From NCBI GenBank assembly GCA_026418415.1, contig JAOABK010000006.1, positions 16,157 to 80,156 of the forward strand: a DNA stretch of 64,000 nt, given 5' to 3'. Below are positions 1-18,576 of the stretch, one piece after another. Source of the stretch: Pseudomonadota bacterium (GTDB taxonomy: Bacteria > CALINM01). Under the pieces are notes generated by a model. The model ran no database searches. It had not been told where the DNA came from and saw nothing but the letters and a program-made list of their open reading frames with translations. Numbering within the stretch: position 1 is the first letter of the stretch; each line of letters begins with the position of its first letter. The position numbers and the translations under genes are program-made.

Positions 1-974
1 TCCTTACCTTTGGTGTAGGATATAGCTCAGTTGATCAGTTTATGGGCTCTTTACAGGTCTCACAAAATAATTTATTTGGCAAGGGACAAAAGTTATCTGC
101 AAAGCTCCAGATAGGTAGTAAAACTCAGGAATATGATGTCAGTTTTTTAGAGCCCTGGCTATTTGGAAAACCAGTATCAGGTGGGATTGATATTTTTAAA
201 GTCAAGAGAAAATATACCGATTATACAAAAGAGAGTACTGGCTTTGGATTAAGAAGTGGTTATAGAATTAGTGATGATTGGAGTGTTACTGGAGGATATA
301 GATTTGAAATTGCAGATGTAACGGATGTAAAAGTAACTGCTTCTCAAATTATTAAAGATCAAATTGGAAAAAGAACTACAAGCTCTATTTATGGAAATCT
401 TATTAGAGATACGAGAAACGATGCCTTTTATCCTACAGATGGTTCAAGTTTTACCTTCTATCTTGAGTTTGCAGGTGGACCTTTGGGCGGTGATAATGAT
501 TATGTAAAAAGTGTGGTTGATTACGCCAAATATTTTTTATTGCCCTGGCAACATACAATTTCTATTCACGGTCAATATGGAATTGTTGAATCTTATGGTA
601 GTAAAAAACTTCCTATATATGAAAGATTCTTTCTTGGGGGTATGTATACCCTTCGTGGTTTTGAAAGTAGAAGCATTGGACCAAAAGACCCAAAGACTGG
701 CGATGTTTTAGGTGGAGATAGAGAATTATTTGGAAATATAGAATATATATTTCCTCTTATAAAGGAAGCAGGAGTTAGAGGTGTTTTATTCTTTGATTTT
801 GGAAATGCCTACAATTCAAATATTTTACCGCCAGAGTTAAGATATAGTGTTGGCGCTGGAATAAGATGGTATTCACCTATGGGACCACTAAGATTAGAAT
901 GGGGTAAGAACCTTAATCCCAAACGTGATGAAAAGAGCAGTAAATGGGAATTTTCAATAGGTACAATATTCTGA
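1..974 (+). CDS. bamA: Outer membrane protein assembly factor BamA, C-terminal part (5' truncated by window edge)
   Basis: Frame is open from the window start (LTFGVGYSSVDQFMGSLQVSQNNLFGKGQ); beta-barrel C-terminus with GGxxTLRGF motif, PLRLEWG and terminal F; next to skp/lpxD as usual. Confidence 0.95.
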   Translation, partial: LTFGVGYSSVDQFMGSLQVSQNNLFGKGQKLSAKLQIGSKTQEYDVSFLEPWLFGKPVSGGIDIFKVKRKYTDYTKESTGFGLRSGYRISDDWSVTGGYRFEIADVTDVKVTASQIIKDQIGKRTTSSIYGNLIRDTRNDAFYPTDGSSFTFYLEFAGGPLGGDNDYVKSVVDYAKYFLLPWQHTISIHGQYGIVESYGSKKLPIYERFFLGGMYTLRGFESRSIGPKDPKTGDVLGGDRELFGNIEYIFPLIKEAGVRGVLFFDFGNAYNSNILPPELRYSVGAGIRWYSPMGPLRLEWGKNLNPKRDEKSSKWEFSIGTIF

Positions 975-1003
975 TATAATAAAAAAAAATTGGAGGAGAT
1001 AGA

Positions 1004-1522
1004 ATGAAAAAAATTTTACTTTTTTTAACCTTTGTTCTTTTATTAATTGGTAGTGCCTTTGCTCAATCTGTAAAAATTGGTATAGTCGATATGCAAAGGG
1101 CACTTAATGAATCTAAAGAGGGAATGGAAGCTAAAAAGGAAATTTCTAAGAAAGCAGAAAACATGCAAAATGAGCTTAAACAATTACAGCAAGAGCTTGA
1201 TAAATTAAAATCAGAAATCGAAAAACAAAGCTCTTTTATGAGCGAGGAAGCAAAAGCGGAAAAAGAAAAGGTTTTTCAGAAAAAACTCAGGGATTTTCAA
1301 AACAAATATAAAGAAGCACAAGAGGAGTTACAACAAAAAGATGCTGAATTAACTAAAAAAATTGTTCAACGTCTTGAGAAGATTTTACAGAAAATAGGAG
1401 AGGATGAAAAATATACAATTATATTGGAAAAAAATTCAGGTGGTATATTTTATTTTGATAAAACTATTGACCTAACAGAAATATTAATTAAAAAGGCAAA
1501 TGAGGAAACCACAAAGAAATGA
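1004..1522 (+). CDS. skp: OmpH/Skp family periplasmic chaperone
   Basis: Signal peptide, [15 protein letters not shown] start and long coiled coil; between bamA and lpxD; SD ggagg upstream. Confidence 0.92.
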
Positions 1523-2535
1523 AAAAATACAAGCTTTCATACATTGCTAATTTATTAAAGGGGAGCTTATTTGGTGAAGATATTGAAATAACAGGAGTGG
1601 CTTCTATACATAATGCAAGAAGGGGAGATATTACATTCCTTTTTAATAAAAAATTCACTGAGTTGGCTGTAAAATCAGATGCTTCAGCTTTTGTTGTTTC
1701 TGAGGGTATCAAACTTGAAAATAAAAACACAATAGTTGTCAAAAATCCATCCTATGCACAGGCTGTAATACTAAATTTGTTTTATCACCTAAGAGAATAT
1801 ACCCCACAAATATCTAATAAAGCTTTTGTAGCTGAGTCTGCAAAAATTGATGAGAAAGTTACAATAATGGATTTTGCTTATATTGATGAAAACGCAACTA
1901 TAGAGAATGGAAGCGTTATTTATCCATTTGTTTATGTGGGTAGGAATGTTAGAATTGGCAAAAATGTAAGGATTTATCCACATGCTGTATTAATGGATGA
2001 TACTATTCTTGGAGATAACGTAATAATTTCACCTGGTGCAGTTATAGGATCTGATGGTTTTGGTTATGCCTTTGATGGAACTAAGTATATTAAAATTCCA
2101 CAGGTAGGCAGGGTAGTTATAGAGGATGATGTTGAAGTAGGTGCCAATACTACGATTGATAGGGCAACTATAGATCAAACTCAAATTGGTAAGGGTACAA
2201 AGATTGATAATCTCGTCATGATCGCTCATAATGTGAATATTGGAGAAAACTGTATTATAGTAGGTCAGGTTGGTATTGCTGGGAGTGCAAAGATTGGAAA
2301 TAATGCTATTTTTGGTGGGCAGGTTGGTATAGCAGATCATGCTGAGATAGGGAATAATGTTATGATAGCTGCGCAATCTGGTGTTTCTGGTAAAGTAGAA
2401 GATGGTGCAAAATTAGCAGGAACCTATGCAATTGATTTTAAAAAATGGTTGAAAATACAAGCGATATTAAATGATCTTCCTGAATTAAAGAAAAAGATAG
2501 AACAAATTTTAAAGGGGAGTCAAAATGGTGATTGA
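1519..2535 (+). CDS. lpxD: UDP-3-O-(3-hydroxyacyl)glucosamine N-acyltransferase LpxD
   Basis: Hexapeptide repeats, GSDGFGYA and NTTIDRAT motifs; 4-nt overlap with skp. Confidence 0.96.
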
Positions 2536-2956
2536 TAGTGTAGAAATTCAGAAAATATTACCCCACCGTTTTCCTTTTTTATTAGTTGATAGAGTAATTT
2601 CTTTCGAGAAAAATAAAAGGGCGGTTGGAATTAAAAATGTTACTATTAATGAGCCATTCTTTGTAGGGCATTTTCCTATGAATCCTGTTATGCCCGGTGT
2701 TTTAATGGTAGAGGCCCTTGCGCAGGTCGCTGGTGTTCTCGTTTTAAAATCTGCAGAAAAATATGGAGTAAATGATATTTTTTTTGCGAGTATTAAAGAT
2801 GTTAGATTTAGAAAAGTAGTGGTACCTGGTGATCAACTTGTAATGGAAGTAGAATTATTAAAACAAAAAAGGAATATTTACCTATTTAGAGGCAAGATAA
2901 CAGTCGATAATGTGATTGCTGTAGAAGCAGAGTTTATGGCAACAACGCAAATGTGA
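2525..2956 (+). CDS. fabZ: 3-hydroxyacyl-ACP dehydratase FabZ
   Basis: [33 protein letters not shown]. Confidence 0.97.
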
Positions 2957-2963
2957 GGTGAAA

Positions 2964-3743
2964 ATGGTTAAAATTGATGATAGAGCAGTGATATGTAAGG
3001 GAGCACAGATCGGTAATGACGTTGAAATTGGTGCTTATGCTTATATAGGGGAAAATGTAATTATCGGGGATAGGTGTAAAATATATCCTCATGCAGTGAT
3101 TGATGGGTGGACAACAATAGGTAATGATTGTAGTATTTTTCCCTTTGCTTCAATAGGTATGGCACCTCAAGATGTTAAATATAAAAATGAGAAAACAGAA
3201 TTGATAATAGGTGATAGAAACACTATAAGAGAATACGTTACAATCAACAGAGGGACTGTTTCGGGTAAAGGAAAAACGGTAATCGGTAATGATAATTTTA
3301 TAATGACCTCGTGCCATGTGGCGCATGATTGTCATCTGGCGAATGGTATAGTTATGGCTAATTTGGCAACGCTTGCAGGTCATGTGGAAGTAGAGGATTA
3401 TGCAGTAATAGGAGGTTTTACTGCGGTGCATCAATTTGTTAGGATTGGGACTCTTGCAATGGTTGGTGGTGCATCCGCTGTTGCTCAAGATGTTGCTCCA
3501 TATACAATAGTTTCGGGAAACAGAGCGAAACTCTATGGGCTAAATCTTGTAGGGATAAAGAGGAGAGGAATTGAAGGGGAAAGACTTGAAGCACTAAAAA
3601 AAGCTTATAGATTAATTTTCAAAAGTAAATTAACAATTGCAGAAGCAAAGGAAGCCATAGAAAAACAAGGTTTATTAAAGGATGAGGTTGAAATACTTCT
3701 GAACTTCATTTTAAAAAGCTCAAGAGGTGTAATACGTTGGTAA
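2964..3743 (+). CDS. lpxA: Acyl-ACP--UDP-N-acetylglucosamine O-acyltransferase LpxA
   Basis: Left-handed beta-helix repeats, VHQFVRIG, GNRAKLYGLNLVGIKRRG; ATG at 2964 preferred to GTG at 2958 (SD gaggtg). Confidence 0.95.
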   Translation: MVKIDDRAVICKGAQIGNDVEIGAYAYIGENVIIGDRCKIYPHAVIDGWTTIGNDCSIFPFASIGMAPQDVKYKNEKTELIIGDRNTIREYVTINRGTVSGKGKTVIGNDNFIMTSCHVAHDCHLANGIVMANLATLAGHVEVEDYAVIGGFTAVHQFVRIGTLAMVGGASAVAQDVAPYTIVSGNRAKLYGLNLVGIKRRGIEGERLEALKKAYRLIFKSKLTIAEAKEAIEKQGLLKDEVEILLNFILKSSRGVIRW

Positions 3744-4636
3744 GGGTTGGGGTGATTGGTGCTGGTTATTTAGGTAAATTTCATATACAAAAACTTACAA
3801 ATATCCCTAATTGTAAATTAACAGCAATTTGTGAAGTAAGTGAGGATATATTAAGTACATATAAAGATCATGGTATTTTTTTAACAACCAATTATAGAGA
3901 ATTATTGGGTTTGGTTGATGCTGTCTCTATTGTAGTTCCTACGACTTATCATTATGAAATAGCTGAGTTTTTTTTGCGAAATGGGGTTCATATTTTTCTT
4001 GAAAAACCAGCAACTTCAACATCTCTTGAATGTGAAAAACTGTTAAACATTCAACCACAGAATTTAATTGTACAAGTTGGGCATATTGAAAGATTTAATC
4101 CAGTGTTTAATTGGATTAAAGGAAGAGCAAATAAACCAATTATGATGAACTTCATTAGGAAATCTCCTTTTACCAATAGAGGAACTGATGTGGACATTGT
4201 ATTTGATTTAATGATACATGACATTGATTTATCGCTTAGTTTTTTTCCTGAACCTGTAAAAATTGAAAATATTATTTCCGTTGGAGCAAAGATTGTTACA
4301 AATAAAAATGATTATATGTTTGCTACAATTAATATTGATGATGTTATTATAAATTATGAATGCTCAAGGGTTTCATCAGAAAAGGAAAGGAAAATTACTA
4401 TAATAGAAAAAGGTCGGGTGTTTGAGGGTGATTTAATAAATTTTTCAGTATTCCAAAGGGAATTTAATAAAGAAGAATTAATTCGGATTGATAATAAAGT
4501 AGATGCTTTAAATGATGAATTAAAGGTTTTTATAAATTGTATAATTGAAAGAAAAAATCCCCCCGTAACTTTAAAAGATGGATTGCGGGCATTAAAATGT
4601 GCCGAAAACATCCTTAAAACAGCTGAAAGGCAATAG
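3737..4636 (+). CDS. Gfo/Idh/MocA family oxidoreductase in lpx operon (possible GnnA-like role)
   Basis: N-terminal Rossmann motif VGVIGAGYLGKFHIQKL, EKPATS motif; between lpxA and lpxB; TTG start. Confidence 0.88.
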   Translation: MVRVGVIGAGYLGKFHIQKLTNIPNCKLTAICEVSEDILSTYKDHGIFLTTNYRELLGLVDAVSIVVPTTYHYEIAEFFLRNGVHIFLEKPATSTSLECEKLLNIQPQNLIVQVGHIERFNPVFNWIKGRANKPIMMNFIRKSPFTNRGTDVDIVFDLMIHDIDLSLSFFPEPVKIENIISVGAKIVTNKNDYMFATINIDDVIINYECSRVSSEKERKITIIEKGRVFEGDLINFSVFQREFNKEELIRIDNKVDALNDELKVFINCIIERKNPPVTLKDGLRALKCAENILKTAERQ

Positions 4637-4640
4637 ATAA

Positions 4641-5774
4641 ATGAAAAAAATTTTTGTTGTTTCTGCTGAACCATCAGCTGAAATGTATGCAAGTTTCATT
4701 ATTAAAGAACTTAAAAAAACAACAGATATAGAAGTTACAGGAATAGGAGATGCTAAACTTGAGGAAATTGGTGTAACACTTATTGGAAGAGCAAGGGAAA
4801 TTGCTGTCGTTGGCGCGATCGAGGTATTAAATCATTTTTTTAAGATTAAGCAAGTATTGAAAAAATCAATAAAATGGATTAAAGATAACTCACCAGAGAT
4901 GGTATTACTATTTGATTTTCCCGATTTTAATTTTTTATTAATTAAAAGGATTAGAAAATTTTACAAAGGGAAGATTGTTTACATAATTAGCCCTCAAATA
5001 TGGGCATGGAGGAAAAAAAGGAAGTATTTCATTAAAAAAAATGTGGATAAAATGATTGTAATTTTGCCATTTGAAAAGGATATTTACAAAGAAATCGGCT
5101 ATGAAGTAGATTATTTGGGGCATCCACTTGTTGACGTTGTTAGAGTAGATAAATCCCCTCAAGATTTTAAATCAGAAATAGGGATTAAATCTGATAAAAA
5201 GCTTATTACTATCTTCCCCGGTAGTAGGATAAAAGAAATTAAAAATCATATGAGCGTCTTAAACGAATCAATTAATTATTTAAAAAAGAAGTATGCCGAC
5301 ATAGAGTTTTTATTCGTTCTTGCAAATGAACATTTTATTGATTATGTAAATAGTTCTCTTACAAATAAATCTAGGGTTCATGTTATAGCAGGTCAAAATT
5401 ATAATGCAATCAATGCTTCTTATCTAATAATTGCTAAATCTGGAACAGTGACATTAGAAACAGCAATACTTGAAAAACCAGCGGTAGTTTTTTATAAGGT
5501 AAGTAAGTTAAGCTACCTCTTTGCCAAACTGTTGGTTGATGTAAAATTTATATCCCTTCCAAATATTTTAATGAATGAGTGTGTTTATCCTGAATTTATT
5601 CAGAATGATTTTAATGTTGGTAATATTACATCATCAGTGGAAAGATTAATCGAAGATACAGATTTTTATATTTCTACTATTGAAAGACTTCAAAAGATAA
5701 AAAGTGTTCTTGGTGAACAGGGGTTTTTCTTAAGAGCTGCAAAAAAAATAGAGGAATGGCTTAATGAAAGGTGA
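4641..5774 (+). CDS. lpxB: Lipid-A-disaccharide synthase LpxB
   Basis: VSAEPSAEMYASFI, ISPQIWAWRKKR, DYLGHPLVD, PGSRIKEI motifs. Confidence 0.96.
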   Translation: MKKIFVVSAEPSAEMYASFIIKELKKTTDIEVTGIGDAKLEEIGVTLIGRAREIAVVGAIEVLNHFFKIKQVLKKSIKWIKDNSPEMVLLFDFPDFNFLLIKRIRKFYKGKIVYIISPQIWAWRKKRKYFIKKNVDKMIVILPFEKDIYKEIGYEVDYLGHPLVDVVRVDKSPQDFKSEIGIKSDKKLITIFPGSRIKEIKNHMSVLNESINYLKKKYADIEFLFVLANEHFIDYVNSSLTNKSRVHVIAGQNYNAINASYLIIAKSGTVTLETAILEKPAVVFYKVSKLSYLFAKLLVDVKFISLPNILMNECVYPEFIQNDFNVGNITSSVERLIEDTDFYISTIERLQKIKSVLGEQGFFLRAAKKIEEWLNER

Positions 5775-7518
5775 ATCAATAGAGATATATAAAAAGGTAT
5801 TGCATTTTGTAAGACCCTATTGGAAATTATTACTAATTTCAATGCTATTTATGTTGGGAGTAGCAGGTTGTACATCTCTTTTAGCCTACTTAGTTAAACC
5901 TGCACTAAACGGTATTTTTTTCCAGAAAAATGCAGAGTTATTAAATCTCCTTCCCCTTGCGATTCTTTTTACTTATGTTTTTAGAGGAATTTTTAATTTT
6001 TCTCAGGATTATTTAATGAATTATGTTGGTCAGAAGGTTATAATGGATATAAGACAAAAGCTCTTTGAGCATATTCAAAAACTTCCACTTTCACATTTTT
6101 TAACACTTCCAGTAGGTGATCTTGTATCAAGGGCTACAAACGATGTTTTTATATTACAATCTTCTGTATCAAGATCTATTACAAGCTTGATAAAAGACTT
6201 TTTTACTGCTTTAGGTTTAATAGGAGTTGTGTTTTACAACGACTATAAGCTGGCAATCATAGCATTTATAGGTATACCTTTTATATTTGTACCCATATTG
6301 AGGTTTGGACTAAAGGCAAAAAAATATAGTTATCGTGGTCAAGGAATAATGGGAAATATGCTCTCCTTTTTAAAGGAATATTTTTCAAGTATGAGAATAG
6401 TAAAAATCTTCAGTCTTGAAAATATGGGAAAAAAGAGATTTTTTGAAGAAAATCAAAGATATTTCAAAAATTATATGAAACAAATTAAGGTGAGAGCAAT
6501 ATCTGCTCCTGTCATAGATTTACTTGCAGCAGTAGCAATATCTTTCATAATCTGGTATGGTGGGAAACAGGTAATTTCAGGTAATAAAACTCCTGGAGAT
6601 TTCTTTTCTTTTATTACAGCACTTGTTTTGATGTATGAACCGATAAAAAAGATAAACGCATCATTAAACTCTATACAAGAAGGAATTGGTGCCTCAAAAA
6701 GAATATTTGAGATTTTAAGCCTACCAGTAGAAGAGCCAAAAGAGGGACAACTAATAGAAATGAAGGGGCTATTTAATGAAATTACCTTTAAAAATGTTTC
6801 CTTTAAATATAATACAAAATATGTTTTAAAGGATATAAGTTTTACTGTTAAAAAGGGAGAGAAGGTAGGAATAGTTGGACATAGTGGAGAGGGTAAAAGC
6901 ACTTTATTAAACCTTATTCCAAGATTCTATGAAATAAATGAAGGTTCAATAATGATTGATGGAATTGATATAAGAAATTTTACCTTAGAGTCGTTAAGAT
7001 CTCATATTGCTATGGTAACTCAAGAAGTAATACTTTTTAATTCAACTATAAAAGAAAACATAAGATATGGAAAACAAAATGCAACTGAAAATGAAATAAT
7101 AGAAGCAGCAAGACATGCCTATGCACACGATTTTATTATGAAAACACCAGAAGGATATGAAACTAATGTTGGAGAAATGGGAGAACTGCTTTCTGGTGGG
7201 GAAAGGCAGAGAATTGCTATAGCGAGAGCATTTATAAAAGATGCTCCTATTTTATTACTTGATGAGGCAACATCTGCACTGGACTCTAAATCGGAAAGGG
7301 AAGTTCAAAATGCTCTAAATGAACTGATGGAAGGAAGAACCTGTTTTATTGTTGCCCATCGTTTATCAACATTATCAAATGTAGATAAATTAATAGTTCT
7401 TAAGAGGGGTAAAATAGTCGAGATGGGTTCACCAAAAGAACTATACGAAAAAAAGGGAGAATATTTCAAACTATGTAAACTTCAACATCAAGGAGTAAAT
7501 TTTGAAGTTTCTGAGTAA
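5764..7518 (+). CDS. msbA: MsbA-type lipid A ABC exporter (permease-ATPase)
   Basis: TM domain plus GHSGEGKS, LSGGERQRIAIARA, LLLDEATSALD; in lpx cluster. Confidence 0.92.
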   Translation: MKGESIEIYKKVLHFVRPYWKLLLISMLFMLGVAGCTSLLAYLVKPALNGIFFQKNAELLNLLPLAILFTYVFRGIFNFSQDYLMNYVGQKVIMDIRQKLFEHIQKLPLSHFLTLPVGDLVSRATNDVFILQSSVSRSITSLIKDFFTALGLIGVVFYNDYKLAIIAFIGIPFIFVPILRFGLKAKKYSYRGQGIMGNMLSFLKEYFSSMRIVKIFSLENMGKKRFFEENQRYFKNYMKQIKVRAISAPVIDLLAAVAISFIIWYGGKQVISGNKTPGDFFSFITALVLMYEPIKKINASLNSIQEGIGASKRIFEILSLPVEEPKEGQLIEMKGLFNEITFKNVSFKYNTKYVLKDISFTVKKGEKVGIVGHSGEGKSTLLNLIPRFYEINEGSIMIDGIDIRNFTLESLRSHIAMVTQEVILFNSTIKENIRYGKQNATENEIIEAARHAYAHDFIMKTPEGYETNVGEMGELLSGGERQRIAIARAFIKDAPILLLDEATSALDSKSEREVQNALNELMEGRTCFIVAHRLSTLSNVDKLIVLKRGKIVEMGSPKELYEKKGEYFKLCKLQHQGVNFEVSE

Positions 7519-8173
7519 GGAAAAAAAAAGGGCTTTAATTATTAGGTTTTTGCCAAATATTCTAAGTAAATTTCAAAAACTTTTATTTAAAACCATATCC
7601 TGGAAAACTGAAGGGTTAGAAGAGGGCAATAAAATCGAGACACCTGTAATAATTGCATTTTTTCATGGTAGAATGATGATGTTACCCTTTTTCTATAAAC
7701 TCTTAAGACCGAATAGAAAGATAAAAATGATAGTCAGCAGTCATTTTGATGGAGACTTAGTAGGCAAAATAGTCTCTTATCATGGAATTGGTACCCTGAA
7801 AGGTTCAAGTACAAGGGGTGGAGTAAAACTTCTAAAAGAAATAATAGGACTAAAAGATTTTGACATAGGTATTACCCCTGATGGACCTAAAGGACCAGCA
7901 GAAAAAGTAAAAGATGGGGTTATATTTATAAGTAAGTTAACAGGCTTTCCCATTCTTCCTGTTACATATAGTGTTAAAAAAAAGAAGATCTTAAATACCT
8001 GGGACAGTTTTATTGTGCCAAAACCTTTCACAAAAGGGTTATTTATTTGTGGTGAACCAATTTATGTTCCAAAAGATATTAGTGATGAAAAATTTAAATA
8101 TATGTCTCAAATGCTTGAAGATAGGTTAAAGGGATTAAATACTTTGGCAGATGAATTGGTAAAAAAAATATGA
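7502..8173 (+). CDS. DUF374 lysophospholipid acyltransferase family protein (candidate LpxJ-like secondary acyltransferase)
   Basis: FFHGRMMMLPFFYKL, SSHFDGDLV, GSSTRGGVKLLKE, TPDGPKGP motifs of DUF374; between msbA and waaA. Confidence 0.88.
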   Translation: MKFLSKEKKRALIIRFLPNILSKFQKLLFKTISWKTEGLEEGNKIETPVIIAFFHGRMMMLPFFYKLLRPNRKIKMIVSSHFDGDLVGKIVSYHGIGTLKGSSTRGGVKLLKEIIGLKDFDIGITPDGPKGPAEKVKDGVIFISKLTGFPILPVTYSVKKKKILNTWDSFIVPKPFTKGLFICGEPIYVPKDISDEKFKYMSQMLEDRLKGLNTLADELVKKI

Positions 8174-9435
8174 TCATAATTTTTTTATATAATTTTCTTT
8201 TGTTATTTTTATGTCCCTTGGTTGTTATTTACTTCTTATTTCAATCTATATTTATTAACAAAAGACGCGGAGGATTGCTTAGAAAATTAGGCTTTTATTC
8301 AAAAAATGATCAGTTTGAAAATACCATAGTTATTCATTGTGTATCGGTTGGTGAAATTTTATCTGCTATCCCTTTTATAAACAAAATTTCACAAATGTTT
8401 AAAAAAAATATTATTTTAACAACCACTACGCAAACAGGTTGGAAGATCGCTAATGAAAAATTGAAAAACACTGTAAAGAAAATAGAATTTTTCCCTTTTG
8501 ATTTTCCCTTTGCTGTTTTAAGTTTTATTAATATATATTCGCCTAGGTGCATTATAATTACAGAAACTGAGTTATGGCCAAATGTAATTTTTTTTTCTAA
8601 ATTAAAAAAAATACCACTTTTTGTAATTAATGGAAGGATATCTGACAGATCATTTCCAAGATATAAAAAATTAAGGTGGTTTTTTAGAAAATTTCTTGAT
8701 TATCCATTCTTTTTAATGCAAGGAGAATTAGACAAAGAGAGAATTATTGAGATAGGCGCTATTCAAGAGAAAGTCATAGTTACTGGTAATATTAAATATG
8801 ATTTTATGCTTGAAGATCAAAAGTTTAAAAGGGAAGATTTTGGATTGTCTAACAACGATTTGGTAGTTATAGCAGGAAGCACTCATAATGGTGAAGAAGA
8901 GATCATATTACAGACTTTTAAAGAGCTTAAAAATAATTTCAAAAACCTGAAATTGATTATAGCTCCTCGTCATCCAGAAAGATTTGGAATAGTAGAGAAT
9001 CTGATGAAAGAGAAAGGCTTTAAATATACATTAAGAATTGAAAATAAATTTACAGAAGAGGTTATGTTATTAAATACTATTGGTGAACTTAAAATTTTCT
9101 ATTCTTTATGCGATATCGCTTTTGTTGGTGGTAGTCTTGTGAATATTGGTGGTCATAATATAATTGAGCCAGCTGTATTTGAAAAACCTGTAATTTTTGG
9201 ACCCTATATGCATAATTTTAGAGACATTTCTGAATCTTTCCTTAAAAATGGTGGAGCCCTTCAAGTTAATGAGGAAACAATTTCAAAAAAATTATTAGAA
9301 CTTTTATCAAATTCTGAATTAAGAAAGGCTATGGGAAAAAAGGCGAAGGAAATAGTTTTAAAAAATTCTGGAAGTTTAGAAAAAACTTTGAACTTTATTT
9401 TGGATAAGTTAGATGTTAGAGAGAATAATCAATAA
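8170..9435 (+). CDS. waaA: 3-deoxy-D-manno-octulosonic acid transferase (Kdo transferase)
   Basis: N-terminal TM, HCVSVGEILSAIPFI, TETELWPN, NGRISDRSF, GGHNIIEPA motifs. Confidence 0.95.
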   Translation: MIIIFLYNFLLLFLCPLVVIYFLFQSIFINKRRGGLLRKLGFYSKNDQFENTIVIHCVSVGEILSAIPFINKISQMFKKNIILTTTTQTGWKIANEKLKNTVKKIEFFPFDFPFAVLSFINIYSPRCIIITETELWPNVIFFSKLKKIPLFVINGRISDRSFPRYKKLRWFFRKFLDYPFFLMQGELDKERIIEIGAIQEKVIVTGNIKYDFMLEDQKFKREDFGLSNNDLVVIAGSTHNGEEEIILQTFKELKNNFKNLKLIIAPRHPERFGIVENLMKEKGFKYTLRIENKFTEEVMLLNTIGELKIFYSLCDIAFVGGSLVNIGGHNIIEPAVFEKPVIFGPYMHNFRDISESFLKNGGALQVNEETISKKLLELLSNSELRKAMGKKAKEIVLKNSGSLEKTLNFILDKLDVRENNQ

Positions 9436-10426
9436 AATTTGGTATAAGAAAGAATACTTTTTCTTATCTATAATTTTATTGCCTCTATCTTTGATTTATT
9501 ACATTTTTTGGAAAATTGCCGATCTTTATTATAACTTTTTACATAAGCCGAAAAAGCTTAACTGTCCAGTAATCAGTGTAGGTAATATATCTCTTGGAGG
9601 GACTGGTAAGACCCCTTTTATAATTTTTTTAATTCAATATTTTTTAAATAAAGGAATTAAGGATTTAACCATACTTACAAGAGGATACAAAGGGAAGAAG
9701 TTAGGTGTTATAGAAGATAAAGAGGGCGAGCCAGATGAGGCAAGATTGTTAAAAAAATTATTTCCAGAAATAGTTGTTTTAGCTAATCCTAAAAGGCATG
9801 AAGCTTTTTTGAATTATTATTCTAATAAGAAGTTACCTCAAATTGTAATTTTAGATGATGGTTTTCAGCATAGAAGGTTGTTTAGAGATTTAGATATTTT
9901 AATGATTGACGGTTATTTAAATTTTGGTAATGGATATTTATTTCCCGCTGGTCCTCTTAGGGAACCTAGAAAATCTATGAAAAGAGCAGACATAATAATA
10001 ATTAAAAGACTTGATGGAGAAGATAAATTAATTTTTGAAAAACCGATGTTTTACTTTAATATTCAGGACGTAATAATTAAAAATAAAGAAGATATAAAAA
10101 TATCAAAGGAGCTACTAAAAAACAAAAAAATTACAGCCTTTTGTGGAATTGCAAATCCAGAAGGTTTCAAGAAGACAATTATAATGACTGAATTATCTAT
10201 TGAAAATTTTTTTGCCTTTCCAGACCATTACAATTATACTAAAAAAGATATTGATACCCTTTTGGGTACTGACTGTGATGCATATATAACAACACAGAAG
10301 GACTGGGTCAAAGTTTCATATCTTTGGCCTGAAAAAAAAGAACTTTATGTTTTAATTCCAGAATTTACTATTAATGATAGAGATGGTTTTGAAAGGATTT
10401 TAAATGAAAAAATATGTTTTTCTTGA
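9413..10426 (+). CDS. lpxK: Tetraacyldisaccharide 4'-kinase
   Basis: ISVGNISLGGTGKTPF, LTRGYKGK, DDGFQHRRLFRDLDI, FPAGPLREP. Confidence 0.96.
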   Translation: MLERIINKIWYKKEYFFLSIILLPLSLIYYIFWKIADLYYNFLHKPKKLNCPVISVGNISLGGTGKTPFIIFLIQYFLNKGIKDLTILTRGYKGKKLGVIEDKEGEPDEARLLKKLFPEIVVLANPKRHEAFLNYYSNKKLPQIVILDDGFQHRRLFRDLDILMIDGYLNFGNGYLFPAGPLREPRKSMKRADIIIIKRLDGEDKLIFEKPMFYFNIQDVIIKNKEDIKISKELLKNKKITAFCGIANPEGFKKTIIMTELSIENFFAFPDHYNYTKKDIDTLLGTDCDAYITTQKDWVKVSYLWPEKKELYVLIPEFTINDRDGFERILNEKICFS

Positions 10427-10961
10427 TAGAGATGGAACTGTTTGTGTAGAAAAAGAGTATTTAGATGATTATAAAAAGATGGAATTTATTGATGGTGTAG
10501 AGAAAGCATTGAAAATGATAAAACAGAAAGGATATTTAGTGATTATAATTACAAACCAGTCTGGGGTTGCAAGAGGTAAATTTTCTATAGAGGAAGCAGA
10601 AAATCAAAAAAGATACTTTATCGATTATTTTCTAAAAAAGGGAATTAAAATAGATGGATATTATTATTGTCCCCATCATCCAGAGGGAATTATAAAGGAG
10701 TTTGCAATAGATTGTGATTGTAGAAAACCTAAAGCTGGGCTCATTTACAAAGCAATATCTGATAATAATATTGACTTATCTAATTCATATGTTGTGGGAG
10801 ATAAGAAAATAGATATAGAGTTGGCGTTAAATATAGGCGCCAAACCAGTTTTAGTGCGAACTGGTTATGGCATTGAGGAGGAAAAAAAAGTTTTAGTGAA
10901 AGACAAAATCCAAATTTTTGATAATCTATACAAATTTGCTTTAAGCCTAAAGGAGGTGTAA
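10404..10961 (+). CDS. gmhB: D-glycero-beta-D-manno-heptose 1,7-bisphosphate 7-phosphatase (HAD family)
   Basis: FLDRDGTV, TNQSGVARG, CDCRKPKAGL, VGDKKIDIE. Confidence 0.9.
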   Translation: MKKYVFLDRDGTVCVEKEYLDDYKKMEFIDGVEKALKMIKQKGYLVIIITNQSGVARGKFSIEEAENQKRYFIDYFLKKGIKIDGYYYCPHHPEGIIKEFAIDCDCRKPKAGLIYKAISDNNIDLSNSYVVGDKKIDIELALNIGAKPVLVRTGYGIEEEKKVLVKDKIQIFDNLYKFALSLKEV

Positions 10962-10967
10962 ATATCT

Positions 10968-11141
10968 ATGAGTTTATCAAAGGAATTATTAGAAATTTTA
11001 GCCTGTCCAAAGTGCAAACAGGAAATAAAGATATCAGATGATGAAAAATGGTTAATTTGTAACTTTTGTAAACTTAAGTATCCAATTAGAGAAGACATTC
11101 CAGTAATGCTTGTGGAAGAGGCTGAAAAATTAGATGAGTAA
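10968..11141 (+). CDS. Trm112/YcaR-like small zinc-ribbon protein (57 aa)
   Basis: Translated by hand: MSLSKELLEILACPKCKQEIKISDDEKWLICNFCKLKYPIREDIPVMLVEEAEKLDE; two CxxC pairs, EDIPVML motif; SD aggaggtg upstream. Below the size cutoff of the supplied ORF track. Confidence 0.9.
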   Translation: MSLSKELLEILACPKCKQEIKISDDEKWLICNFCKLKYPIREDIPVMLVEEAEKLDE

Positions 11142-12141
11142 TAGAATTTTTATAAGATGTCCCAACTGGTTGGGTGACATTATAATGTCAATTCCAGCAA
11201 TAAGTGCTATAAAAAAAATTTTTCCAGATCATAAACTTTATTGTTATGCTAGAAAAGAATATGTCTCAATTCTAAAAAGAGTTGAAAATGTTACTGAAAT
11301 TATTGGCTTTGAAAAAAAAACTGTTCTATCAGAAATTTATAATAATGTTAATAATATTAAAAAATACAACTTTGAAAAAGCGATAGTCTTTCCAAATTCT
11401 TGGACATCAGCATTAATACCCTTTTTAGCACAAATTCCTGAAAGATATGGTTATAATGTGAGAGGTAGAGGAATTTTATTTACTAACTCTATTGAGTTGC
11501 CCCACCATATACATGAACTTCACCATGTTTATTATTATCTTGGATTGGTTAGGGGAATAAAGAATATGGATTTTAATGATATGCCAAAACTAAATGTATC
11601 TGATGAGGAGGTTTATGAATTTAAAAAGGGATTTAGCCTTTTAGATAAGAAAACATGTTGCTTTGTTCCAGGTGCTGCTTATGGACCAGCTAAATGTTGG
11701 TTTAAAGAGAGGTATATGGAATTAGGCAAAAAATTAGTCCAAAGGGGGTATACAATTATTCTTGTTGGAGGTAAAGATGATGAAGTAATTTGTGAGGACA
11801 TAAAAATAGGGATACAGGATTGCGTAATTAGTTTAGCAGGAAAAACTAAAATTGATGAGCTACCGGTTGTTTTAAAAAGCTGTAATTTCACAATCTCAAA
11901 TGATTCAGGGCCAATGCATGTCTCAGCAGCAGTAGGTACTCCAGTAATTGGTATCTTTGGGTCTACCAATCCAAAAACTACATACCCCTTTGGTTATAGA
12001 GATCTTGTCATACATAAAGAGTTAGAGTGCTCCTATTGTTTAGATAGAGAATGTAAATTGAAAGTAAATAGGATGAAGTGTATGGAACTGATTACTGTTA
12101 CAGACGTAATAAATAAATTAGAAGAAAAAGGGCTAATATAG
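11134..12141 (+). CDS. waaF: Lipopolysaccharide heptosyltransferase II family (GT9)
   Basis: CPNWLGDIIMSIPAI, FVPGAAYGPAKCW, SNDSGPMHVSAAVGTPVIGIFGSTNP, CSYCLDRECKL. Confidence 0.93.
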   Translation: MSNRIFIRCPNWLGDIIMSIPAISAIKKIFPDHKLYCYARKEYVSILKRVENVTEIIGFEKKTVLSEIYNNVNNIKKYNFEKAIVFPNSWTSALIPFLAQIPERYGYNVRGRGILFTNSIELPHHIHELHHVYYYLGLVRGIKNMDFNDMPKLNVSDEEVYEFKKGFSLLDKKTCCFVPGAAYGPAKCWFKERYMELGKKLVQRGYTIILVGGKDDEVICEDIKIGIQDCVISLAGKTKIDELPVVLKSCNFTISNDSGPMHVSAAVGTPVIGIFGSTNPKTTYPFGYRDLVIHKELECSYCLDRECKLKVNRMKCMELITVTDVINKLEEKGLI

Positions 12142-14154
12142 ATGTTAGAGATTTTAGATTTGATAAATAAAATTGATTTGAAGTTACTATATTTTTTTAA
12201 TATAACCCTTAAAAATCCAATAACTGATTTTTTGATGCCCCTTTTATCAAGATATGGTTATTTATTTTTTATTCCCTTTTTATTATTAGCTTTCAATGAA
12301 AAAAGAAAAGATCTCAATATTTTTATTTTTTTTGTTTTAACCTTTATTTTTTCAGATTTTATCTCTAATACTCTCAAAAACATAATAATGAGACCCAGAC
12401 CTTTTGTAGAACATGCAATTATAAATTTGGAAGGGAGAGGGCTTTCTTATTCTATGCCATCTAATCATGCTACTAATGCCTTTGCTGTAGCTTTCTTTCT
12501 TAAAAATTATATTAAAAAAATCTTTCCTCTATTCATACTTGCTTCTTTAATTGCTATTAGCAGAGTTATTATAGGAGTTCATTATCCCTCTGATGTTTTA
12601 ATGGGAATTCTTTTAGGTGCCATTGTAGGAATTACTTTTAATAAATTTCTATTGAGTTTTAATAACCTGGTAATAAAGGATAAAAATAAGGCTATCCTGA
12701 TTATTATTTTAGTCTTCCTGTCTATATTCAGAATTTTATATATCAAATACTCTCCTATTGATCTTAGTGGAGATGAAGCCCATTATTGGGAATGGTCAAG
12801 AAATCTTGATATGAGTTATTATTCCAAGGGGCCTTTAATTTCTTATATTATCTTCATAGGAACAAAAATATTTGGAGATACGGAATTAGGGGTCAAATTT
12901 TTTGCTGTATTTTTTTCCTTTTTCTCAAGCCTATTAATGTACGAAATTACTGATATGCTTACTAAAAATAAAAAAACATCTTTTTTTAGTGGACTTACTT
13001 TACAAGTATTACCTCTCTTCTCATATCTTGGCATACTCATGACAATAGATAGCCCGTTTCTTTACTTTTGGCTTTTAGGGCTCTATTTAGTTTGTAAAAT
13101 GACTGTTTTTGATGAGTTTAATTTTTTAAAAAACTGGTTATATCTGGGAGTGGTAGTTGGTTTAGGAATGCTTTCAAAATATACAATGGTATTCTTTTAT
13201 CCTTCCTTAGTACTCTTTATATTTTTAGAAAAAAAATTTTATGTTTTTAAAAAACCAGGATTTTATATTTGTATTTTAACTTCACTTTTGATATTTCTTC
13301 CTGTATTGATATGGAATGATACATATGGGTGGGTCACTCTTAAGCATACAGCTTATCATGCAAGAATAGATAAGGGATTAACATTATCATGGTATGATTT
13401 TTTTGAATTTATAATATCTCAAATAGGATTACTCACGCCTTTTATATTTTTACTAATGATTTATTCCTTTATTAAATTAACGGGTTTCCAAAGAAACTTT
13501 ACAATCAGTTTTTTCATAGTTCTATTTAGCTTTTTTACCTTAAAAAGTATACAGGGCAAAGTAGAGGCAAACTGGCCACTTGTTGCATATCCTTCAGGCA
13601 TTTTATCTATGAATGTTTTTTGGAATGAGAGAAAACCGAACTTTTTAATAATCTCTTTCTTGGTTGCTGGAATAATTACCCTTTTTGGATATTTAACCCC
13701 CTATTTAAATGTTCCTGAAAAATATAACCCCTCTTTAAGAATTTTGGGCTGGCAGGAACTTGGGAAAAAGGTTGATTTATTAAAAAATAGTATGGAAAAT
13801 CCTAAAAAAACAATTATATTTACTGACGACTATCAGTTATCAAGCTTAATTTCCTTTTACAGTAAAGATAAGCCTTTTGTCTTTTGTGTTAATTTTACTG
13901 GAAGAAGAATGAATCAATATGACATATGGGCATATAATGAAAAATTTAATATCAATAATTACCGAAACTACAATGCAATTTTTATAACTAAAAATGACAC
14001 ACCATTTATTGAGTTCCTTATACGTCTTAGTTGTAATTCCTATGAAAAAAATAAGGAAGTGTTTTATAATAGGAAAATAAAGGTAAGAGAAATATCTTTT
14101 TACAGATGCTTTGGACTAAAAAGGATTGTAGAATTGCCAATTAGGAGTTATTGA
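12142..14154 (+). CDS. PAP2 phosphatase - GT39 (ArnT/PMT-like) fusion membrane protein
   Basis: N-terminal PAP2 signature KNIIMRPRP...MPSNHATN...SRVIIGVHYPSD, then GDEAHYWEWSRNLDMSYYSKGPLISY typical of GT39/ArnT-like. Confidence 0.9.
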   Translation: MLEILDLINKIDLKLLYFFNITLKNPITDFLMPLLSRYGYLFFIPFLLLAFNEKRKDLNIFIFFVLTFIFSDFISNTLKNIIMRPRPFVEHAIINLEGRGLSYSMPSNHATNAFAVAFFLKNYIKKIFPLFILASLIAISRVIIGVHYPSDVLMGILLGAIVGITFNKFLLSFNNLVIKDKNKAILIIILVFLSIFRILYIKYSPIDLSGDEAHYWEWSRNLDMSYYSKGPLISYIIFIGTKIFGDTELGVKFFAVFFSFFSSLLMYEITDMLTKNKKTSFFSGLTLQVLPLFSYLGILMTIDSPFLYFWLLGLYLVCKMTVFDEFNFLKNWLYLGVVVGLGMLSKYTMVFFYPSLVLFIFLEKKFYVFKKPGFYICILTSLLIFLPVLIWNDTYGWVTLKHTAYHARIDKGLTLSWYDFFEFIISQIGLLTPFIFLLMIYSFIKLTGFQRNFTISFFIVLFSFFTLKSIQGKVEANWPLVAYPSGILSMNVFWNERKPNFLIISFLVAGIITLFGYLTPYLNVPEKYNPSLRILGWQELGKKVDLLKNSMENPKKTIIFTDDYQLSSLISFYSKDKPFVFCVNFTGRRMNQYDIWAYNEKFNINNYRNYNAIFITKNDTPFIEFLIRLSCNSYEKNKEVFYNRKIKVREISFYRCFGLKRIVELPIRSY

Positions 14155-15104
14155 TGAAAGTATCTATTGTCATTCCTATTTTTAATGAAGAAGAAAATAT
14201 TAATCTGTTATATGAGAGAATAAAATTCGTCATGGATAATACTAAAAATCCTTATGAAATAATATTCGTAGACGATGGAAGTAAAGATAATAGTTTGAAT
14301 ATACTTAAGAAGATACAAGAAAATGATGAAAAAATTATAGTAATATCTTTAAGAAAAAACTTTGGCCAAACCTCTGCCTTTGCTGCAGGGTTTGATTATG
14401 CAACAGGTGATGTGATAATAACAATGGATGGTGATCTACAAAATGATCCGGATGATATTCCAAAGTTGATTGAACTTTCCAAAGAATATGATATTGTAAG
14501 TGGATGGAGAAAGAATAGGAAAGATCCGTTTATATCAAGAAGATTACCATCAATTATTGCTAACTGGCTTATTTCTAAAGTAACAGGAGTTAAATTACAT
14601 GATTATGGATGTAGTTTGAAAGCTTATAGAAGAGATGTTTTGCAAAATATAAATTTATATGGAGAGATGCATAGATTTATTCCAGCGGTTGCCAGTCAGT
14701 ATGGAGTTAAAATTACTGAAGTTGAAACAAAGCACCATCCAAGAAAATACGGTAAATCAAAGTATGGAATTTCAAGAACTTTTAAAGTAATTCTCGATTT
14801 AATAATGATAAAATTCTTTCAATCCTTCTTTTCCAAGCCATTGAGGGCTTTTGGCCCAATTGGGTTAGCAAGTTTTTTTGCAGGATTAATAATATCACTA
14901 AAACTTACTTTTGAGAAGTTCTATTACCATAAGGACATTGGGGGAAGACCTTTATTAATATTAGGTGTAATGCTAATTATAGTTGGCGTTCAGATGCTTG
15001 CTATGGGGATTTTAGGTGAATATCTTGTAAGGATTTATTATGAAACGCAGAAAAAGCCTATTTATTATATAAGAGAAATATATACTTCTAAAAGGGAAAA
15101 CTAA
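14154..15104 (+). CDS. Glycosyltransferase family 2 (undecaprenyl-phosphate sugar / ArnC-GtrB-like)
   Basis: SIVIPIFNEEENINLLYERI, DDGSKDNSL, ITMDGDLQNDPDDIP, RFIPA, two C-terminal TM segments. Confidence 0.93.
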   Translation: MKVSIVIPIFNEEENINLLYERIKFVMDNTKNPYEIIFVDDGSKDNSLNILKKIQENDEKIIVISLRKNFGQTSAFAAGFDYATGDVIITMDGDLQNDPDDIPKLIELSKEYDIVSGWRKNRKDPFISRRLPSIIANWLISKVTGVKLHDYGCSLKAYRRDVLQNINLYGEMHRFIPAVASQYGVKITEVETKHHPRKYGKSKYGISRTFKVILDLIMIKFFQSFFSKPLRAFGPIGLASFFAGLIISLKLTFEKFYYHKDIGGRPLLILGVMLIIVGVQMLAMGILGEYLVRIYYETQKKPIYYIREIYTSKREN

Positions 15105-16013
15105 TTGAAAAGATATATCAAATTTTTAGGAAAGGCATTAATAAGCTTTTTTTTTCTATTTCTTGTTTTTAAAAAACTTGATTTTAATACCATCATCATT
15201 GAACTTAAACAAATAAACATAATAATGCTTTTTTTATCTATTATACTTTATCTAAGCACAATGATTTTTTCTACAATTAGATGGTCTTATTTTGTGAAAA
15301 CAAAAAAATCTATAAAAGAATTATTCCAACTATATATGATTGGCACCTTCTTTAATCTCTTTATGCCTGGTACTGTTGGAGGAGATGTTATAAAAGCATA
15401 TTATTTATACAAAGAAGATAGAAAAAAAACTAATCCCCTTGTCTCTGTTTTTATGGAAAGATATATGGGGCTTTGTGCTCTAATAACCATAGCTTTAATT
15501 GGATTCTTTTTTGGTTATGATTACATTAAAGACAGCTTAATCGACAAATTATTTTATCTAATATGTGCATTATTTATTCTCGGGACACTTTTCGTTTTAT
15601 TTTTTCCCTATGAAAAATTTTATCATAAATTAGATAGAGCTCGAGAATCTATTAAAAATTATATGTTTAATCCCTCAATATTTTTTAGGACCTACATATT
15701 ATCATTAATTGTTCAAGGTATTGGTGTTTTAGTAGTTTATTTCCTTGGAATTGGCTTATCTATTCCTCTCCAATTTAAGTTTTATCTGATTTTTATACCC
15801 ATAATAACTGTCATATCCATGATACCTATATCCCTTTCAGGCTTCGGTGTTAGAGAGTATGGTTTTTTATATCTCTTAAGCATCTTTGGTATATCAAAGG
15901 AGAAAGCAGTAGGACTCTCTTTAATGTGGTTTTTTACTATGCTCATGACAGGCCTTGTTGGAATGTTTTTTTATTTGAATAAAAAAGTTAATACAAATGT
16001 TGACATTAGTTAA
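15105..16013 (+). CDS. Lysylphosphatidylglycerol synthase TM region / YbhN-like (UPF0104) flippase-like protein
   Basis: Multi-TM with MPGTVGGDVIKAYYLYK and ISLSGFGVREYGFLYLL motifs; TTG start. Confidence 0.88.
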   Translation: MKRYIKFLGKALISFFFLFLVFKKLDFNTIIIELKQINIIMLFLSIILYLSTMIFSTIRWSYFVKTKKSIKELFQLYMIGTFFNLFMPGTVGGDVIKAYYLYKEDRKKTNPLVSVFMERYMGLCALITIALIGFFFGYDYIKDSLIDKLFYLICALFILGTLFVLFFPYEKFYHKLDRARESIKNYMFNPSIFFRTYILSLIVQGIGVLVVYFLGIGLSIPLQFKFYLIFIPIITVISMIPISLSGFGVREYGFLYLLSIFGISKEKAVGLSLMWFFTMLMTGLVGMFFYLNKKVNTNVDIS

Positions 16014-16054: not shown

Positions 16055-16495
16055 ATGAAAAATCAAAAAGGTTTTACTCTAATTGAGTTGGTTATTGTTT
16101 TAATTCTTCTTGGTATTTTAGCCGCTGTTGCTGTACCTAAATTTATGAATCTTCAAGAGGAAGCAAAGAAGTCTGGTGTTAAAGGTGCTGTTGCAAGTGT
16201 AAGAAGTGCTATTAATATTTATTATGCTAATGCTAATTTGAAGGGAAAAACAACCGTATTCCCACCAAGTGAAACTGTATTAAAGAATATATTGAATGGT
16301 CCTATCCCAGATAATGCAGCAGTAATAAATCCAGGTGCAGACAAGAAGGCAATAGATGTAACTACAACTGCAACACCACCAGCGGTTACAGCAGCAGACA
16401 GTACAACTGCAACAAAACCAGCATGGAGATATAATTCTAATACAGGGCAGTTCTGGTCAAACTGGGGTGGTGGATTTAAAGCTAATACTTACTAA
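16055..16495 (+). CDS. Type IV major pilin, MshA-like
   Basis: Class III leader MKNQKG^FTLIELVIVLILLGILAAVAVPKFMNLQEEAK and SGVKGAVASVRSAI resemble MshA. Confidence 0.92.
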   Translation: MKNQKGFTLIELVIVLILLGILAAVAVPKFMNLQEEAKKSGVKGAVASVRSAINIYYANANLKGKTTVFPPSETVLKNILNGPIPDNAAVINPGADKKAIDVTTTATPPAVTAADSTTATKPAWRYNSNTGQFWSNWGGGFKANTY

Positions 16496-16498
16496 TTT

Positions 16499-16529
16499 TT
16501 TAAAGGCTGCCAAATCGGCAGCCTTTAAA
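16499..16529. terminator. Inverted repeat after pilin gene (terminator/processing hairpin)
   Basis: TTTAAAGGCTGCC-AAATC-GGCAGCCTTTAAA, perfect 13-bp stem and 5-nt loop directly after the pilin stop. Confidence 0.75.
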
Positions 16530-16571
16530 CTTCAATTTGTTTTATTAATCTATTTTTCCAAGGAATAGGAT

Positions 16572-18533
16572 ATAAAAAATAAAAAAGTTTTATTATCCTT
16601 CATATTAACATTTTCATTCCTATTTTCAATCATCAAGATTAGAAGTTATGATTTATTTATTTATCTTAAAGTTGCTGATTTTGATAGTTTCTTAAATCCT
16701 ATAAAAACTAATCTTTTTTCCTTTTCCCATTCCAATTATGGCTACACAAATTATTCAATCATTTTTTCTGAGATAGCTAATTTACTTAATAATTTGTTTG
16801 GAATTAGCTCTCTTATTTTTTTTCAATCCCTTATAATCTCGGTAAGCTTTGGATTGCTAACGCTCATATATAAAAAGAAAAATAATTACATTTTTATTAT
16901 GATCTTTTTCCTGCTCTCCCTTTTTACTTTGAGAGAGAGACTTTTATTTAGACCCCATAATTTAAGTTATTTATTTTTTGCAATAAATCTATATCTGTTA
17001 GTTAATGACCTGAAAGGTAGATTGTTATTTTTGTTTTTAAATCAGATCTTTTGGGTAAATACTCATAATAGTTTTATATTAGGAATAATTAATCCCTTTT
17101 TATTGTATCCCTTTATACCGAATAGAAGTTACAAAAGTTTATTGTTAGTCTTTGCAACAAGTACCTTAGGAAGTTTATTTTCAATACATTTCTTAAAACC
17201 CTTTATAGAAATTTTTAACCCCTTTTTAGGAGAAACGAAAGAACTCTTTAAAATTCTACCAATACATGAATGGCAAACAATAGATTTAAATTTAATTTTA
17301 TCTTTTTATGGATTACTTGTAATTTTTTCTATTTTGCTAATTTTAAAAACAAGGTTCTACAAAATAATCCCCTTTTTTGCATTTTATTTATTTATATCTA
17401 TAAAATTTGTCAGATTTATAGACTATTTTGCATTGTCAGCTTTTTTTACTATGATTATTTTACTTAACAATAATAGTGAGATAGAAGAAAGTCTTAAATT
17501 TGTAATTTTAAAATATGCTTTGTTTTTCGTGATATTTTTATGGTGTATTATTAGTTATTTTAATAATCCTCTTATACCCTATGGTTTAGGCATGGCTGAC
17601 TTCTTTTATCCCCAAAATGCTATAGATTTTATGAAAAAAAATAAAATAAAGGGAAATATTTATAACAGTTATCCCTTTGGTGGATATATTATTTATAATC
17701 TTTTTCCCGATTCTAAACCAATCATTGATGGCAGGCTTTGTTACCCCTTGGATTTTATAAAATTATATTCAGATTCTCTTGAAGATCCTTATGCATTTAA
17801 AAATCTTTTGATTAAGTATAAACCAGAGATTTTTCTTCTCGATTATAACCACCCTAATATAATAATTTTTCTTGATATTATGAGAGATAGATATAAGCTT
17901 GTATATTTTGATGATAATTCAATGATTTTTTTGGAAAAATCAAATAAGTTTGAGGATATTATAAGAAATCATGAGTATAAGCATATTTCTCCTCAATATG
18001 TAATGGGCATAGATATTGAGAAAAAACATGATATGGAAAGGGTAATTGAAGAAATACAAAGAAATATTAAGGAAACAAATAGTGTGAGAAGCAATATTAT
18101 GTTTGGTAATATTCAACTTAATATGGGAAGAAAAGATAAAGCTAAAGAAATATTCAAACAAGTAATTAAAAGGGAAAGTCCTATTGGCAAAGCAGAGGCT
18201 TATAATAATCTTGGAATATTATATCTTGAAAACAATGATATAAGTAATGCTATTAAAATGTTTAAAAAAGCGATCTTTTTTAACCAAGATTTTGATATAG
18301 CATATTACAATTTAGCTTTAATTTATAGAGAAAGAAATGATTTTGTTAGTTCCTTTTACCATCTATTTAGATATTTAATTATTCAAAAAAGTAAAGGCGA
18401 AGTAAAAGATGATTTAAAGACTGAATTCATTGAGGTATTTAAGCAAGCAATTAAAAGTGTAATTAAGTACACAGGTCTAATGTTGGCTATTTTTGGTATT
18501 CTTTACATATTGTTTATAAAAAAAAGAGGGTAG
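16572..18533 (+). CDS. Polytopic membrane protein with C-terminal TPR domain (start re-assigned, apparently AUA)
   Basis: Supplied ORF starts at TTG 16794, but the frame is open back to a TAG at 16566-16568 and encodes a TM helix (IKNKKVLLSFILTFSFLFSIIKIRSYDLFIY); SD AAGGA about 7 nt upstream of ATA at 16572; C-terminal TPR AEAYNNLGILYLENNDISNAIKMFKKAI. Confidence 0.7.
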   Translation: MKNKKVLLSFILTFSFLFSIIKIRSYDLFIYLKVADFDSFLNPIKTNLFSFSHSNYGYTNYSIIFSEIANLLNNLFGISSLIFFQSLIISVSFGLLTLIYKKKNNYIFIMIFFLLSLFTLRERLLFRPHNLSYLFFAINLYLLVNDLKGRLLFLFLNQIFWVNTHNSFILGIINPFLLYPFIPNRSYKSLLLVFATSTLGSLFSIHFLKPFIEIFNPFLGETKELFKILPIHEWQTIDLNLILSFYGLLVIFSILLILKTRFYKIIPFFAFYLFISIKFVRFIDYFALSAFFTMIILLNNNSEIEESLKFVILKYALFFVIFLWCIISYFNNPLIPYGLGMADFFYPQNAIDFMKKNKIKGNIYNSYPFGGYIIYNLFPDSKPIIDGRLCYPLDFIKLYSDSLEDPYAFKNLLIKYKPEIFLLDYNHPNIIIFLDIMRDRYKLVYFDDNSMIFLEKSNKFEDIIRNHEYKHISPQYVMGIDIEKKHDMERVIEEIQRNIKETNSVRSNIMFGNIQLNMGRKDKAKEIFKQVIKRESPIGKAEAYNNLGILYLENNDISNAIKMFKKAIFFNQDFDIAYYNLALIYRERNDFVSSFYHLFRYLIIQKSKGEVKDDLKTEFIEVFKQAIKSVIKYTGLMLAIFGILYILFIKKRG

Positions 18534-18541
18534 CTCCTTTA

Positions 18542-18569
18542 TTGAATTACCTTTATTTTATGTTAAAAT
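18542..18569 (+). promoter_or_regulatory. Putative promoter giving a leaderless mRNA for the minor prepilin genes
   Basis: TTGAAT, 16-nt spacer, TAAAAT (18564-18569), ATG 7 nt later at 18577; no SD. Confidence 0.55.
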
Positions 18570-18576
18570 AAAGTAG

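Follow-up and report, generated by a model that had tools for sequence, protein, structure and literature searches.

The window analysed here, a 64,000-nucleotide stretch of contig JAOABK010000006.1 from a Pseudomonadota bacterium, carries a three-gene cassette whose first gene encodes a complete PAP2 lipid phosphatase and a GT39-type glycosyltransferase in a single polypeptide. The cassette forms the 3' end of a complete lipid A/lipopolysaccharide (LPS) operon on the same strand, and the fusion is widespread in Nitrospirota. By analogy with rhizobial lipid A modification, the cassette is best read as the known LpxE + RgtF + RgtE scheme brought into one protein, which would exchange a phosphate for a sugar. 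Its components are as follows.

12142..14154, forward strand: PAP2~GT39 fusion protein of 670 aa, an intact single open reading frame (ORF), supported by Pfam domains, alignment and an AlphaFold model
12142..12678, forward strand: PAP2 lipid phosphatase half, residues about 1-179
12682..14151, forward strand: GT39/ArnT-like GT-C glycosyltransferase half, residues about 181-670, with ArnT fold and the periplasmic motif D211-E212
14151..15104, forward strand: ArnC/GtrB-like GT2, a predicted polyprenyl-phosphate sugar synthase, overlapping the fusion end by 4 bp
15105..16013, forward strand: YbhN/LPG_synthase_TM-like membrane protein (LPG_synthase_TM/TIGR00374), a candidate sugar-lipid flippase

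The fusion protein matched Pfam PAP2 (PF01569) at residues 63-167 (E 3.8e-22, 78.9 bits against a cut-off of 27.2) and PMT_2 (PF13231) at residues 229-391 (E 4e-30, 105.6 bits against 26.1), and PF01569 was matched by all 63 fused family members. The PAP2 motifs are complete (K79-X6-R86P87, P106SNH109 and S140R141-X5-H147-X3-D151). Among the 63 aligned fusions K79, R86, P87, P106, S107, H109, R141, H147 and D151 are invariant, and S140 is conserved in 62, the remaining sequence having S140T. The acidic motif of the GT39 half is similarly conserved, with E212 invariant and D211 present in 61/63, and 56 of the 63 have a spacing of exactly 61 residues between the two halves, from D151 to E212. 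The initial annotation had described a complete PAP2 joined to an ArnT/PMT-like GT39 domain with these motifs, and the Pfam matches, intact ORF and alignment bear this out. By catalytic motif and Pfam the fusion is a member of the PAP2 lipid phosphatase superfamily, and by domain, fold and periplasmic acidic motif its C-terminal half is a GT39/PMT_2-type GT-C enzyme.

An AlphaFold2 model built from the 63 sequences had a mean predicted local distance difference test score (pLDDT) of 92.2 and a predicted template modelling score (pTM) of 0.89. In this model a single residue separates the last helix of PAP2 (149-179) from the first of GT39 (181-203). In Foldseek the predicted fold matched ArnT with undecaprenyl phosphate (5f15) best, and PMT and PglB ranked below it. 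For the PAP2 half the best match was Aquifex LpxE (6ebu), with a template modelling score of 0.76 by target and a root-mean-square deviation of 3.0 Å over 163 columns, consistent with an LpxE fold. Lys/Arg-rich loops lie at residues 54-57, 121-127, around 180 and 363-371, and suggest that both active sites are on one side of the membrane, the periplasmic one.

A survey of fused and split homologues had been proposed with the initial annotation. A total of 84,980 species genomes were scanned with the fused alignment and the best 80 loci were retained. Nearly all were from metagenome-assembled genomes of Nitrospirota, and Thermodesulfovibrio sp. N1 was also represented. A fused ORF was present in 76/80 of these loci, and the GT2 and YbhN-like genes were directly downstream in 62 of the 76, a conserved cassette. 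Full-length fused proteins matching the window protein were also found in 4/386 surveyed genomes, 36-42% identical and each followed by GT2 and YbhN homologues. Within the phylum of one surveyed genome, G263, which was assigned to Nitrospirota by tree placement, at least 61 fused genes were detected in 246 genomes (50 as single matches spanning both halves and 11 as two same-frame pieces). The possibility that a sequencing artefact had joined two genes, which would have undermined the original description, is excluded by the fused homologues in the four other surveyed genomes, by the 76 fused named loci and by this phylum-level count.

Split forms were found as separate adjacent PAP2 and GT39 genes at L069 (genome G172), L124, L162 and L163; at L070/L071 the two genes are separate within one cluster of different gene order, with LpxK and two heptosyltransferases nearby. 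The split cassettes are packed like operons, several of them inside LPS-core gene clusters. The order at L069 is HepII-GmhB-HepI-PAP2-GT39-GT2-YbhN, with all three LPS genes above their NCBIfam cut-offs, and at L162 LpxK-x-x-HepII-GmhB-HepII-PAP2-GT39-GT2-YbhN. Fused or split cassettes are present in several unrelated genomes. LpxC was detected in 10/10 genomes tested, namely the window's own, seven other fused or split carriers and two relatives. In a variant lineage of five loci (L168, L169, L170, L172 and L173) the place of GT2 and YbhN directly after the fusion or GT39 gene is taken by a UDP-glucose 6-dehydrogenase-like gene, and some of these loci adjoin Wzt-like or heptosyltransferase genes. 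Directly upstream of the fusion at L168 (10430-15997) is a gene for an 1855-aa protein with GT2, pyruvyl-transferase, GT9 and GT2 domains; L169 has an 1852-aa ORF at the matching place.

In the GT39 tree split forms fell outside a large fused clade, and two split rows nested within it appear to have lost the fusion later. The window sequence was placed inside the fused clade, with Nitrospirota plus L157, at support values of 100 and 99 in two trees. Constraining all fused GT39 halves to one clade gave an approximately unbiased test p-value (p-AU) of 0.060, so that one or two fusion events are both compatible with the data; the PAP2 tree had few well-supported branches and favoured neither LpxE nor UppP. 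Genome G002, from the family of the window genome, has the same lipid A operon as far as GmhB, followed by neither HepII nor the cassette on that contig. In G001, from the window's genus, no cassette match was found, but neither was an LpxK match, and this absence carries no weight. From these placements we infer that a Nitrospirota-like donor probably passed the cassette to the lineage of the window, the alternative being a loss in G002.

The genomic context of the cassette in the window consists of the following features.

42..10961, forward strand: lipid A/LPS operon of BamA (partial ORF), OmpH, LpxD, FabZ, LpxA, GFO/IDH (GnnA-like), LpxB, MsbA-like ABC transporter, DUF374, WaaA, LpxK and GmhB
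10968-11141: Trm112-like small ORF of 57 aa between gmhB and hepII, too small for the ORF list
11134..12141, forward strand: LPS heptosyltransferase II (HepII), directly upstream of and outside the cassette (TIGR02195 222 bits, cut-off 134.6)

As the initial annotation had noted, the cassette directly follows LPS core genes. The genes are packed without gaps, the HepII stop (12139-12141) abutting the fusion ATG at 12142, followed by the 4-bp overlap with GT2 and then a GT2 stop abutting the TTG start of the YbhN-like gene. The assignments of the two downstream proteins also held under profile searches. Among solved structures the GT2 profile matched ArnC best (E 1e-79), but the GT2 is not a member of the ArnC equivalog, scoring 245 bits to PRK10714, below the cut-off of 529. 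The YbhN-like protein scored 74.2 bits to TIGR00374, above the cut-off of 43.2, and is a member of that family. The GFO/IDH oxidoreductase gene between lpxA and lpxB (3737-4636), of the UDP-GlcNAc 3-dehydrogenase family, is GnnA-like but below the equivalog cut-off, and is also present in G002 (L167). It may indicate a diaminoglucose (GlcN3N) lipid A, a form that often accompanies lipid A substituted with galacturonic acid (GalA).

We consider it about evenly balanced whether the cassette performs a phosphate-for-sugar swap on lipid A, or on a phosphorylated LPS inner core. In the proposed mechanism the GT2 would charge undecaprenyl phosphate (Und-P) with a sugar taken from a nucleotide sugar at the cytoplasmic side, and the YbhN-like protein would help to move the resulting sugar-lipid to the periplasmic leaflet. 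The PAP2 half would then strip a lipid A phosphate at the periplasmic face, most likely from the 1-position by analogy with LpxE, and the GT39 half would transfer the sugar onto the freed position, the fusion coupling dephosphorylation and glycosylation as one committed reaction. In this scheme we infer the acceptor, its modified position, the sugar, the PAP2 substrate, the role of the flippase and any channelling between the two sites.

The nearest known precedent is in rhizobia, in which the 1-phosphate of lipid A is taken off by LpxE and GalA is added by RgtF, with a polyprenyl-phosphate-GalA donor made by RgtE; rgtE, rgtF and lpxE are clustered in Mesorhizobium loti, and in Aquifex lipid A GalA replaces both phosphates (PMC5644692, PMC7663294, PMC6581854). 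The M. loti system (1-phosphatase, alpha-(1,1)-GalA transferase and Und-P-GalA synthase) has the same PAP2, transferase and GT2 types in clustered genes, with lipid A as the known acceptor, the likeness drawn here being one of enzyme type. In contrast to the cassette, which fuses two of the enzymes and adds a YbhN-like protein, the M. loti enzymes are separate and the available text of these sources mentions no YbhN-like gene. GT39 genes on Rhizobium plasmids (plus one in Martelella), 23-31% identical and adjoining GT2 genes, show a related theme. On the plasmids at L188, L189 and L190 the GT39 and GT2 genes lie beside phosphatase genes, a separate PAP2 in L190 and dual-specificity phosphatases in L188 and L189, L188 being near mprF.

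Comparison with ArnT (GT83/PMT_2, Cupriavidus 5ezm/5f15) and its partner ArnC rests on the GT-C fold match and the ArnC-like GT2. ArnT, however, places 4-amino-4-deoxy-L-arabinose on a phosphate that lipid A already carries, and it lacks a phosphatase domain; the GT39 half resembles it weakly in sequence (E 0.033), and the ArnT equivalog PRK13279 gave 35.9 bits against a cut-off of 567. Aquifex aeolicus LpxE, of the same PAP2 lipid phosphatase family, is the closest solved PAP2 by profile and fold, but is a stand-alone enzyme, 28% identical in the Foldseek alignment, with PSGD where the window protein has PSNH. The PAP2-MCR fusions of Sutterella likewise combine in a single ORF an N-terminal PAP2 and a transferase that modifies lipid A in the periplasm, although their partner is a phosphoethanolamine transferase rather than a glycosyltransferase and their role is putative (PMC8296556). 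These fusions were the nearest arrangement found in text searches of the literature, which covered open-licence papers and are therefore weak evidence of novelty; the searches returned no description of a PAP2-GT39 fusion and no experiment on any family member.

The coupling of phosphate removal to transfer of a polyprenyl-phosphate sugar, as proposed initially, is supported by the cassette, the predicted periplasmic sites, the structural matches to LpxE and ArnT, the LPS-core context in several lineages and the lpxE-rgtF-rgtE precedent; its choice of phosphatase substrate is less secure, the PAP2 half scoring at least as near to undecaprenyl-diphosphate (Und-PP) phosphatases as to LpxE. Several observations weigh against a lipid A modification. 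In most Nitrospirota the cassette is not beside LPS genes but beside unrelated ones such as gidA/gidB or hemD, and eight fused loci have no GT2 or YbhN nearby though the contig has room. The UDP-glucose dehydrogenase lineage has O-antigen-like neighbours (Wzt and glycosyltransferases), for which reason the acceptor could be elsewhere on LPS. No lipid A structure of any carrier organism was found in the open-licence literature. Finally, among NCBIfam models the fused PAP2 halves lie nearer to undecaprenyl-diphosphatases than to LpxE: 63/63 of them matched SepP and PRK11837, both models of Und-PP phosphatases, and 11/63 the LpxE model, all far below cut-off, and known LpxE enzymes hydrolyse Und-PP as well, according to the available text of PMC6581854.

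Substrate specificity of the PAP2 half is the weak point, since solved structures favour LpxE whereas curated sequence models favour undecaprenyl-diphosphatases. Against solved structures the PAP2 profile matched Aquifex LpxE 6ebu at E 1.3e-23, YodM at 3.8e-18 and PgpB at 1.8e-8; few PAP2 lipid phosphatases have solved structures. The NCBIfam LpxE equivalog PRK09597 gave 21.2 bits for the window protein, below the cut-off of 177. These profile scores, with the Und-PP activity of LpxE, lend some weight to a role of the PAP2 half as an undecaprenyl-diphosphatase whose local supply or regeneration of Und-P would serve the GT2, with the GT39 half glycosylating LPS or another surface glycan and the fusion serving carrier supply. 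We regard this as unlikely, though it has to be taken seriously. The GT39 reaction, by GT-C chemistry, leaves Und-P and not Und-PP, and the genome already has a BacA-type UppP as well as a DgkA-PAP2 protein; the lipid-carrier recycling suggested as an alternative in the initial annotation therefore fits poorly, and the logic of the fusion favours preparation of an acceptor. The PAP2 is, moreover, joined to the acceptor-side transferase and not to the GT2. The DgkA-PAP2 protein, a 230-aa joined lipid-carrier kinase/phosphatase (L079:8842-9534, G000:C71), is the only other PAP2 found in the window's genome.

The same enzymology could also act on another phosphorylated acceptor, such as a heptose or Kdo phosphate of the LPS inner core, a component of the O-antigen, or a phospholipid such as phosphatidylglycerophosphate (PGP) or phosphatidylglycerol (PG), yielding a glycosylated phospholipid. 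In the window, L069 and L162 the LPS genes closest to the cassette encode heptosyltransferases, one lineage has the O-antigen-like neighbours described above, similarity of the PAP2 half extends to the PGP phosphatase YodM, and a YbhN-family gene occurs in the glucosaminyl-PG operon of Pseudomonas (PMC12713373). The Pseudomonas enzyme, however, relies on a cytoplasmic GT4 and not on GT39, and the known PAP2 enzymes that prepare acceptors for polyprenyl-phosphate-sugar transferases (LpxE/LpxF) act on lipid A. Such an acceptor appears improbable, slightly more so than the carrier-supply role.

Glycosylation of a protein such as pilin by the GT39 half, to which the PAP2 half would be incidental, is very improbable: although a prepilin-like gene lies at 16055, 41 bp downstream of the cassette, and the domain is named for the PMT family, the overall fold match is to ArnT ahead of PMT and PglB, and the cassette is conserved without such a gene, prepilin-like genes being present in the flanks of 0/80 carrier loci, which also disfavours the adjacent pilin as the target suggested earlier. 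The prepilin-like gene run (16055-20654) adjoins a membrane protein (16794-18533) with a C-terminal TPR region and an N-terminal part without a curated family.

For the sugar itself, the best guess is a uronic acid, as hinted by the UDP-glucose 6-dehydrogenase-like gene directly after the fusion or GT39 gene in the five variant loci. UDP-sugar dehydrogenases were found in 21/21 genomes tested and also in 14/14 control genomes, and their presence has no power to identify the sugar. Mannose is weakly disfavoured by the GMP/PMI matches, which were absent in the split-cassette genome G172 and marginal in the one-contig genome G263.

Nitrospirota lipid A appears uncharacterised in the open-licence literature searched, and the cassette predicts that in this lipid A a sugar replaces one phosphate. 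We advance tentatively, at somewhat less than an even chance, that a single bifunctional enzyme common in Nitrospirota takes a phosphate off lipid A and puts a sugar from undecaprenyl phosphate at that position, giving a low-phosphate, glycosylated lipid A in a committed and possibly channelled reaction. If so, the fused enzyme would show a coupling of phosphatase and glycosyltransferase for which separate enzymes have so far been known in rhizobia and which has been inferred for Aquifex and Caulobacter, and the gene pair would readily serve as a metagenomic marker of low-charge lipid A.

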